A stretch of 64,000 nucleotides of DNA from Chlorella sorokiniana (Eukaryota > Chlorophyta > Trebouxiophyceae > Chlorellales > Chlorellaceae), in NCBI GenBank assembly GCA_025917655.1, contig CP084609.1:1550001-1614000 (forward strand), written 5' to 3'. Positions within the stretch are counted from its first letter, which is position 1. Every line of letters starts with the position of its first letter. The notes beneath the pieces are model-generated. The model was not told where the DNA came from, made no database searches, and was given only the letters and a program-made list of their open reading frames with translations. Position numbers and translations under genes: made by a program. Shown piece by piece: positions 54,022 to 57,867 of this stretch.

Positions 54022-57000
54022 ATGACGCAGTTGCGCAAGGTGAACGACAGCGGAATTTTCCAGACTGGCTAAGGTCGCTGTGCCGGAAGCCGCAAAACTT
54101 CACCTGCCCTGCCGTCCTTCAACCTGCTGTTGCAGAGCTCGGAGCTCCCCAAAACACTGCGCACCCGCTCCCCATCAAAGGGTGCAGCCGGTCTGGGGTT
54201 GCGAATGCCAGGCCGGCGTCCAAGGCCGACTCCTGCAAGCTGCCCCCGCTGCTGCCACCCGCCGCCACCCCTCGGCAAGGTCTGCAGCAGCCTCAGCAGC
54301 AGCCGGCAGTCGCTACAGCCGGCGTCGATGACTATGCCGTGGTGAGCTCGCGGCGCATGGAGCGTAACGGACTGCATGGGCCCCCTCTTGCGCTTCGCAT
54401 GCCTTCTTTGAGCGTCACACCTCCCCACTAATGCCTGCAGCCCATCCGGGAGGTGGTGCGCCCAGCAAACCAGTTGCTGCTGAGTGCAGCGGAGCTGGAG
54501 GAGGAGATAGGGCGGGAGCTGACCACCGGAAACCCTGCAGCACCCACCAGCATGGTGCGGTACCACGCCAAGGAGCGGGGCTACAGGGCGGAGCCCATCA
54601 TCGACCAGCAGCTGCACCACTTTGTGCTGGGCGGCTGCCTCATGCACTGCGAATCGGAGGAGGCGGCCCGTGAGCAGCAGCGGCAGGCCGGCCTGGCAGC
54701 AGCTGCGCCGCAGGTGCCCCGTGGCACCGCGCAGGCGCAGCCGGGGAGGGAGGGCAGAGCGCGCAGCCGGGCCAAGCCGTGGCGGCGGTGCATGGAGGGG
54801 AGCAGGGGGCAGGTCGGGCCAGAGGCTGCTGTTGAGCCTGAAGCCAGCACAAGCGAAGCGGGGAAGACGAGACCACGGTCCGCCTGCGCAACCAGTTCAA
54901 CTTTGCAGACCGCGCGGCACAGACTGCGCACCAGCGCCCCAAGGACCGAGGCACCTCGACCGAGCCGCCACCCACCGCCTCCACCTCTGGCTCCTGCTCC
55001 CGCCCGAGATCTACGAGGCCTACCTGCAGGACCAGGAGCGGCAGCGGCAGGCCGATGCGGCGGCGCGGCAAAAGGTGCAGGTGGCACGTCGAGGCCACCC
55101 GGCGGCGGCGGCGCAGAAGGCGGCAGAGCTGGCGCTGACCACCGAGGTTCGGGTGCAGCCGCAGCCGGGGCTGGCCTTGCGGGAGCAGTCTGTTTCCCGG
55201 TGCGGGATTCCGCAGCCTCGCTGCTGCCCTGAGCACACCATCCACGCCCTGGTAACACGCGTGTTTGCTGCGCCTGCCCTGCCGCCCGCGTGCAGGGCAA
55301 GGATGCTGCGGTCGGGGGCCTGCCGCGGCTGACGGTGAAGCTGGTGGAGCGCATGGTGCAGCAGAACCTGATGGAGGACCAGATCCAGGACTTCAGGGTG
55401 AGCCCCCGCCCCTGAGGCCCTGCCGCTTCGGCAGCCTGACAAACAATTGTGCCTCGGCACGCTGCCGGCGACCGCTCAGGCCCCGCTCCGCAGCTTCACC
55501 TGAAAAGGCGTGCCTTTCCCTCGCCAATGCCAACGCCCGCGCCTGCAGTACTGGGACGACCCCTCCGACGCCATCCGGGCCGACGAGGGCACGCTGCTGC
55601 CGCTGTGGGGCGACAAGGAGAGCGGCGCGTTCTGCAGCCCGCGCGTGAAGCGCCGCGCCGTCACAGCGCTGGCCTGGTCCCCCCGCTACTTCGACCTCTT
55701 TGCAGTGGGCTACGGCTCCTTCGACTTCCTCAACCCCACCACCGGCCTGGTGTGCTGCTACAGCCTGAAGAGCCCCGGCCAGGCGGAGCTGAGCTACAGC
55801 ACGGGCGCGGGCGTCATGTGCCTCGACTTCCACCCAGACCACCCCGCCCTGCTGGCGGTGGGCTGCTACGATGGAGCCATCCTCGTCTACGACCTGCGCT
55901 CAGGCGAGCCGCCGCCCCTGTCACTGCCCTGCTCAGGGGCAGTGGCGCGGTTGTGACGAGTGGTGTGCATACCTGGACCAGGGGACCAGGGGCTGGGATG
56001 GGCGACAGCCGTGGGAGCAGCGCCATGAGTGCCTGTGGCGTGGCTCGCCCGCTCACGTCCAGTGCGGCTGGGCCCTGTGCAGGGGGCGAAGAGCCTGTGT
56101 TCCGGGCCACCCAGCGCACGGGCAAGCACAGCGAGCCCGTGTGGCAGGTGTGCTGGCAGCGCAGCGAGGGCCACGAGGTCATGCTGTGCTCCATCTCCAC
56201 TGACGGGCGCGTCGCAGAGTGGTCGTTTGCGGGCAGCGAGATGCAAATGCGGGACGTGCTGCAGCTCAGCAACCTGCGGGAGCGCAAGCGGCTGCCGTTA
56301 TCCATGCTGCCCGCTGCGCACGGCGAAGCAGCTGCGGAGGTCGCGCTGGCGAGCGGCGGCGCGGATCAGCCTGCAGAAAGCAAGCCGCAGCCGCAGCCAC
56401 AGGCACCGCCGCCGCAGCCGCCGCAGCAGCAGCAGGAGCAGGGGCAGCAGCAGGCGGTGCAGCAGCTGGGCGGCAGCAGGAGCAGCAAGCCTTCGGAGGA
56501 CGAGGGCGGGGAGCAGGCTGTCGGCATCGCAGGTGGGTTGACGCTGGCCTCGGGCAAACACACTTGTGCTGCCACTGGCTTTCGTAGCCGCCCTGTCAGA
56601 GCCGTCCCTCTGTTCTGTTGGCTGTCCGTTGCCCACGCGGCTACACTACTGCAGCTGGTATTTATCTTTTTTTTTTTGTGCGCAGGCGGCTGCTGCTTCG
56701 ATTTCCACCGGGAGCAGCAGTTTCTGTTTGTGGTGGGGGCCGAGGACGGCAGCCTGTACAAGTGCTCCACCGCATTCACCACAGAGTTCTTGCAGGTGTG
56801 TGTGTGTGTGTGTGTGGGGGCGGGGGCATGCGGCGCAGGGCCCGCAGCGGAAGTCAGCTACGAGGCTGTGTGCTTGCCTGCTTGCTGTCAGCGCTGTTCA
56901 CGTTCATTAGGCACCTTTGGCGACGGCCCAAACCTTCGCCCCGCTCGCCCGCCGCTGCTGCGCTGCCATGTGGCAGGCGTACCGCCCGGCCACCGCCTGC

Positions 57001-57867
57001 CCGTGTACGCCGTGCGCTGGAACCCGCTGCACTCGCGCGCCTTCCTGTCGGCGGGGGCCGATTGGAAGCTGAAGCTGTGGGACTCGGTGCTGGACAGGGT
57101 GCGCCGCGGGGGCTCACGCGCGTTGTGCCGGCCCACCGCGTTCGCGCCTGCCCACCGCCTCCACCCCCAAACCTCCTCTCACGCATGCGTCTCAGCAGCT
57201 CCAGGCCATGCTGACCCTGTCTCAGCTTGCTGCGCCGCATCCCCCCCCTTTTGTCTTGCCCTGCAGCCTGTGTCCACGTTCGACCTGCGTGCCCCCGTTG
57301 GCGACGTGGCCTGGGCCCCCGCCAGCTCCACCGTGTTTGCCGCCGCCACCGACTCGGGCAAGGTGGCGGTGTTCGACCTGGAGCGCTGCCGCGACGCGCC
57401 CGTCTGCGTGCAGCGCGTGGCGCGCAAGTCGCGCCTCACCCGCATCGCCTTCAACGCCCGCCACCCCGTGCTGCTGGTGGGCACCGAGCACGGCGCCGTC
57501 GTCTGCCTGAAGCTGTCCCCCAACCTGCGCCGCACCTTCAACCCAGGCAAGCGCCGCCTGCCGGCACACCTCTGCATGCCCGCCGACACCGGTGTGGATC
57601 CGCAGCAGGCGGAGCGGCTCTTGCAGTTGGTGACGCTGGATTGTTTCGGAAAAGCTGTTCCAGCATTTGCTGACGCTCGCACGCCTGCCGGCTCGTTATA
57701 TTTCCTCTATATTTCCTCTGGTGTGCAGAGGCGGCGGCCCTGTCGGACCCTGGCTCCCAGCGGGGCAGGCGGTGCGCGCCGCCGAGGCCGCCAGGCTGGA
57801 TGCCGTGCTGGAGCTGGCGGGCAAGTGCAACGCGGCGCTGCAGGAGGAGGACTGGGAGCTGATGTGA
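54022..57867 (+). CDS. DNAI1: Outer-arm dynein intermediate chain 1 (DNAI1/IC78 type), WD-repeat
   Basis: This chain assembles the outer dynein arm of motile cilia and anchors it to the doublet. The diagnostic N-terminal half is present: VPIREVVRPANQLLLSAAEL, TGNPAAPTSMVRYHAKERGY, IIDQQLHHFVLGGCLMH, RNQFNFADRAAQTAHQRPKD with RGTSTEPPPTASTSGSCS, EIYEAYLQDQERQRQ and LVERMVQQNLMEDQIQDFRY. The WD domain follows: ALAWSPRYFDLFAVGYGSFD, YSTGAGVMCLDFHPDHPALL, AVGCYDGAILVYDLRSGEPP, GKHSEPVWQVCWQRSEGHEV, GCCFDFHREQQFLFVVGAED, VYAVRWNPLHSRAFLSAGAD, FDLRAPVGDVAWAPASSTVF and HPVLLVGTEHGAVVCLKLSP-NLR. This excludes cytoplasmic dynein IC, which lacks the FNFADRAAQT/TEPPPT block. The ATG at 54022 (MTQLRK, then a GTGAAC donor) is tentative. 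The stop follows EEDWELM. Frame breaks lie near 54990 and 57760; a C-terminal Gln-rich insertion (56380-56520) separates WD repeats. Confidence 0.93.

Follow-up and report, generated by a model that had tools for sequence, protein, structure and literature searches.

Dynein genes have been described before in coccoid green algae that have no known flagella. Chlorella variabilis is reported to possess outer-arm subunits (PMC4168999, citing Blanc 2010), 114 of the 195 CiliaCut genes were found in C. vulgaris (Cecchin 2019, PMC6972661), and, according to the available parts of these sources, it is already published that Chlorella, for which no flagella are known, has outer-arm genes (PMC4168999, PMC6972661, Craig 2025 PMC12636532). 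The genome studied here likewise belongs to a coccoid member of the Chlorellaceae that has genes for outer- and inner-arm dyneins and is not known to form flagella; what sets it apart is a pair of inner-arm heavy chains that appear to lack motors, which the available sections of the accounts of C. variabilis and C. vulgaris do not mention (PMC6972661, PMC12636532).

Two further systems provide points of comparison. Thalassiosira pseudonana is reported to have motile flagella whose only dynein arms are the outer ones, and to lack IC138 (PMC2239267). As far as the accessible part of that account goes, it resembles the present genome in having no inner-arm motors and no IFT dynein; it has three outer-arm chains and no IC138, whereas here the beta chain is missing and tails of the I1 inner-arm dynein remain together with an IC138-like gene (PMC2239267). 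In the Chlamydomonas strains oda4-s7 and oda2-t, and in an I1 beta-motor mutant, a heavy-chain tail is likewise reported to persist without its motor; these laboratory mutants have lost one motor, whereas here both I1 chains appear to be motorless in nature and tail-only chains are predicted in several species (PMC12338079, PMC6249098).

The outer-arm intermediate chain gene

The window, the 64,000-nucleotide stretch of DNA analysed here (contig C8, 1550001-1614000), is part of the genome that we searched, which comprises 38.8 Mb in 15 contigs. On its + strand, at approximately 54237-57867, the window holds a DNAI1/IC78 gene in which ten exons were read with their splice sites; further upstream exons are possible. 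The first WD exon (55504-55956) scores 142.6 bits against Chlamydomonas IC78, compared with 40.6 bits against human-type DNAI2 and 35.3 bits against cytoplasmic dynein IC, and judged by these scores the match to IC78 is therefore far beyond chance. The gene also carries the outer-arm N-terminal block, PIREVVRPANQL...AELEEE...VRY followed by LRNQFNFADRAAQT...TEPPPT...EIYEAY, which aligns with Micractinium tetrahymenae P0001. A first-pass annotation of this DNA had proposed that a DNAI1/IC78 gene is retained, and that its N-terminal block together with the WD repeats sets it apart from the cytoplasmic chain. Both proposals are borne out by the scores and the block, and on sequence grounds the gene is outer-arm IC1 and not a cytoplasmic IC.

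A protein search with DNAI1 returned 790 proteins at E<=0.001. Among the 120 of these that were listed, at least two (P0005 and P0006) bear the name '78 kDa intermediate chain, flagellar outer arm', and the closest is P0001 at 829 bits, its best local block, covering 34% of the query, being 69% identical. M. tetrahymenae is a member of the Chlorellaceae, and Chlorella and Micractinium are the nearest relatives in the protein searches. Because outer-arm retention in Chlorella has already been published, the finding of DNAI1 is known in kind: it is an expected result in a Chlorella-like green alga and one more case of a known pattern. Like Chlamydomonas IC78/IC1 and vertebrate DNAI1, the gene has the outer-arm N-terminal block and a WD propeller, and its partner IC2 is in the genome; it differs from them in two frame changes in the assembly, in a Gln/Pro-rich insertion in exon 6, and in that no partner beta heavy chain was found.

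The gene model, all on the + strand, begins with the 3' part of exon 1 (54237..54341), an open frame ending in ...VDDYAV that matches P0001 DDYAVPVREVVRPANQL and has a GT donor after 54341. Exon 2 (54441..54713) carries the outer-arm N-terminal block, and exon 3 (LRNQFNFADRAAQT...EIYEAY; 54848..55074) has its 3' end at either 55074 or 55146. Exon 4 (LTVKLVERMVQQN...QDFR) lies at 55296..55397. Exon 5 (55549..55903), which encodes the first WD repeats and gives the IC78 score above, uses a GC donor with a GT alternative at 55919, and exon 6 (56083..56532), with more WD repeats, has an alternative acceptor at 56063; their join calls for a GC-AG intron or, with GT-AG borders, for a small insertion. 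A WD repeat is encoded by exon 7 (56686..56795) and another by exon 8 (56977..57098), with further repeats in exon 9 (57267..57629). The C-terminus (AALQEEDWELM) lies in exon 10 (57769..57867), which shows 81% identity to P0001 across 32 residues and ends in a TGA stop at 57865-57867.

Comparison with P0001 reveals two single-base frame changes, both in conserved coding sequence where an intron would not fit. The first, within exon 3 (54990..55006), is seen as overlapping matches in two frames; the second, at approximately 56985-56990 in exon 8, would disappear with a different donor within the GT repeat 3' of 56795. The gene start at 54022 given in the first-pass annotation is unsupported. 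The ATG at this position runs into a stop after 16 codons and, by eye, has no phase-matched splice into the next exon, and it was rejected as the start of DNAI1.

Dynein heavy chains in the genome

The partner intermediate chain IC2 is located at C1:3654451-3656685, with seven exon matches. A WD40 family search was set aside for naming IC2 as it gave too many matches, and two other candidates were rejected: a WD40 gene at C1:847 kb, which reads by eye like ERCC8/CSA, and a gene at C5:365 kb that is closer to IC138/DNAI4. The latter (C5:365396-366735) is IC138-like, scoring 106.5 bits against IC138, 101.1 against DNAI4 and 77.6 against DNAI1, which makes its assignment to IC138 a moderate one.

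Four linker and motor profiles searched across the genome contigs give matches over the cut-off at two loci, on C7 and C13, and at no third locus (PF03028 3/3, PF12781 8/8, PF08393 12/12, PF12774 12/13); the thirteenth PF12774 match lies on C9, below the cut-off at E 0.025. AAA P-loops are present in both motor genes. With joined exon pieces, rather than entire chains, as queries, the C13 chain is nearest gamma (604 bits; next DNAH5, 375) and the C7 chain nearest alpha (487 bits; DNAH9 305, beta 267). The C7 gene has kelch propellers 5' of its linker, the same layout that is reported for green algal alpha chains (PMC12338079), and its score and propellers rule it out as the beta chain. Reading frames resembling eL14 were seen by eye 5' of this gene, at C7 ~1013.9-1014.8 kb. 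A beta heavy chain was not found, there being no third motor locus with the four profiles and no beta tail with the tail profile PF08385, and heavy-chain searches of the genome, which were not specific for IFT dynein, turned up no IFT dynein.

The tail profile PF08385 (DHC_N1) gives 15 matches at three loci: seven in the gamma gene on C13, five on C2 and three on C3. The C3 tail is nearest I1 1-beta (251 bits; next 135, DNAH2 122, outer beta 95). The C2 tail scores 302 bits against 8glv_Cn, 204 against DNAH10 and 89 against 1-beta; we take 8glv_Cn to be, in all probability, 1-alpha from its kinship with DNAH10, as the record itself does not carry that name. Neither tail locus has a linker or motor match to PF03028, PF12781, PF12774 or PF08393. 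The C2 tail frame ends at approximately 3487.88 kb, and some 0.35 kb further on, on the same strand, lies the first ATG (~3488.23 kb) of a gene with a histone fold (PF00808), which reads by eye as DR1/NC2beta. In C3:1994501-1998000, a domain scan of the - strand brought up nothing beyond a coiled-coil match below the cut-off, which lies within the tail; the + strand yielded a VPS9 match, also below the cut-off. The tails of both chains of the I1/f inner-arm dynein are present, linker and AAA motor were found in neither chain, and 1-alpha and 1-beta appear as tails without motors.

The first-pass annotation had named IC2 and the alpha, beta and gamma heavy chains as partners of DNAI1 to look for in the genome, and held that a lack of IC2 or of outer-arm heavy chains would speak against its reading. 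IC2, alpha and gamma are present, and beta was not found by the profiles; since IC2 and outer-arm heavy chains are in the genome, that objection does not apply. On its second objection, a routinely flagellated host, the protein searches bear through the nearest relatives, Chlorella and Micractinium. The broad axonemal set that it had suggested is not supported: the dynein set is strongly reduced, with two motor heavy chains and I1 as tails only, and the profile searches of the genome found no beta chain, IFT dynein or inner-arm motor.

Tail-only predictions in relatives

Four proteins, P0121-P0124, came out of a protein search that used the 1-alpha tail as query. P0121 (Chlorella sorokiniana, 1555 aa) is a 1-alpha tail fused by the gene model to the histone-fold gene; P0122 (C. 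ohadii, 1206 aa) and P0123 (1307 aa) also match the tail, as does P0124 (1388 aa, 31% identical), which is perhaps a fragment of a full chain and was not counted as tail-only. Of the five proteins from the 1-beta tail search, one is P0125 of M. tetrahymenae (1607 aa); the others (P0126 to P0129) are partial and were excluded from the tail-only count. In a Pfam scan of P0121, P0122, P0123 and P0125, DHC_N1 was found and a motor was not in all four. P0125 aligns to 1-beta over residues 124-1099 and 1119-1189, and P0122 to 8glv_Cn over 155-890 and 923-1220; P0121 and P0122 share 82% and 78% identity in two blocks, and P0122 and P0123 are 47% identical.

Chlorella sorokiniana and C. ohadii, then, have predicted tail-only forms of 1-alpha, and Micractinium tetrahymenae has one of 1-beta. 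These proteins are gene predictions, and the search admits proteins of similar length only; full-length heavy chains could therefore not turn up, and a lack of them in the relatives is not demonstrated. The fusion of tail and histone fold in P0121 offers the best outside support for a putative tail-only 1-alpha. A literature search found no title or abstract opening on motorless I1 chains in algae, a weak negative as most subscription papers lay outside its scope.

Probable function of the retained dynein set

The part of this inventory worth following is the reduced set itself, with motorless I1 and no beta chain; it is more telling than the window gene alone. We infer its function from the sequences, and consider it probable that they represent a pared-down axonemal kit for a flagellate stage that seldom occurs, in which the I1 tails are a scaffold and alpha and gamma alone give force. 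IC1 and IC2 would hold the outer-arm heavy-chain tails on the doublet microtubule, and the strongly reduced axonemal set would be kept for a rare, unseen flagellate stage of this Chlorellaceae alga, probably a gamete. The I1 tails 1-alpha and 1-beta may pair via their DHC_N1 regions and, once paired, serve as a scaffold that holds an IC138-type regulatory complex, with force coming from alpha and gamma only in what would be a short-lived flagellum. Multi-chain dyneins are reported to pair through DHC_N1 with the IC/LC complex, and arms still assemble in oda4-s7 and oda2-t with one motor domain missing (PMC12338079); in the I1 beta-chain motor mutant, IC138 is reported to be hyperphosphorylated (PMC6249098).

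The beta chain is the docking partner of alpha, and alpha here would be without it; we know of no precedent for an outer arm built from alpha and gamma with beta absent. The reason is seen in Chlamydomonas, where beta null mutants are reported not to form outer arms (PMC12338079). The outer arm in the present genome must be different or broken. Our more specific proposal is a tentative one, which could well prove wrong: that the Chlorellaceae have a naturally motorless I1, with both chains ending before the linker as a conserved tail-only scaffold, and that an alpha and gamma outer arm without beta drives an unseen flagellum. One I1 tail may even occupy the place of the beta tail. If the I1 motors were lost while the tails remained under selection, the scaffold role of dynein would have been split from its motor role in nature, in parallel to the laboratory mutants of Chlamydomonas. 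The inventory offers a concrete way to test whether a flagellum still beats in Chlorella, and what a beta-less outer arm looks like.

The dynein genes might instead be relics, with the flagellum gone, DNAI1, IC2 and the heavy chains decaying and the motors as the first large losses; we regard this as unlikely. It draws on the frame changes in the assembly, of which close comparison gives seven single-base cases (two in DNAI1, three in IC2 and one in each of the 1-alpha and 1-beta tails), with one more in the gamma tail from the PF08385 matches. However, DNA comparison shows that each of the seven intervals contains 3 to 6 consecutive C or G, as in homopolymer errors, although neither DNAI1 interval has a run longer than 3, a length that is common in DNA of such high GC. 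The HSP70 control, a non-ciliary gene, also has a frame break, one in 57 matches (C3:1270819-1271083, a few-base overlap in two frames), while the Cpn60/TCP1 control has none in 55 matches, both controls having been judged by eye in the match tables. The adjacency count, with frame breaks picked by eye from match tables, is 3/67 for ciliary matches (DNAI1 10, IC2 7, PF03028 3, PF12781 8, PF08385 15, PF12774 12, PF08393 12) against 1/112 for chaperone matches (Fisher p=0.15), and settles nothing. The relatives, moreover, retain long open 1-alpha, 1-beta and DNAI1 proteins. Error and decay are not separable from these frame changes, and we lean towards assembly error.

It seems very unlikely that the set is an ordinary one in which the absent motors and beta chain reflect gaps or search failures. 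The first pass of the genome search scores the best candidates only, and no completeness figure is given for the assembly; but the four linker and motor profiles all lead to C7 and C13, with many exons at each, and querying the genome with the alpha motor at E<=10 gave 13 matches, 10 at C7, 3 at C13 and none at other loci. The C2 tail is directly followed by another gene, and the same tail-only shape recurs in the predictions from relatives.

The first-pass annotation had claimed PACRG as another cilium gene in the window; the motif LVPYYRQLLP (ALVPYYRQLLPPLARCE), in frame on the - strand at window position ~15888 (~15.9 kb), which we assign to PACRG by its pattern, agrees with this claim, the motif being the only part of the gene found. 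To our knowledge, outer-arm dynein has no non-ciliary role. That the retained parts have a non-ciliary job, such as transport within walled cells or the cross-linking of their microtubules, is highly improbable, as IC1, IC2, IFT144 and the PACRG motif all belong to the cilium, even though two P-loop motors are left and cytoplasmic dynein 1 is said to be lost from this lineage (PMC2239267). C. variabilis is reported to be without most or all IFT particle genes (PMC12636532); here, the IFT-A subunit IFT144/WDR19 is found at C1:700052-700459 with 92.9 bits. The IFT144 profile also gives a second, weak match at C1:679054-679449.
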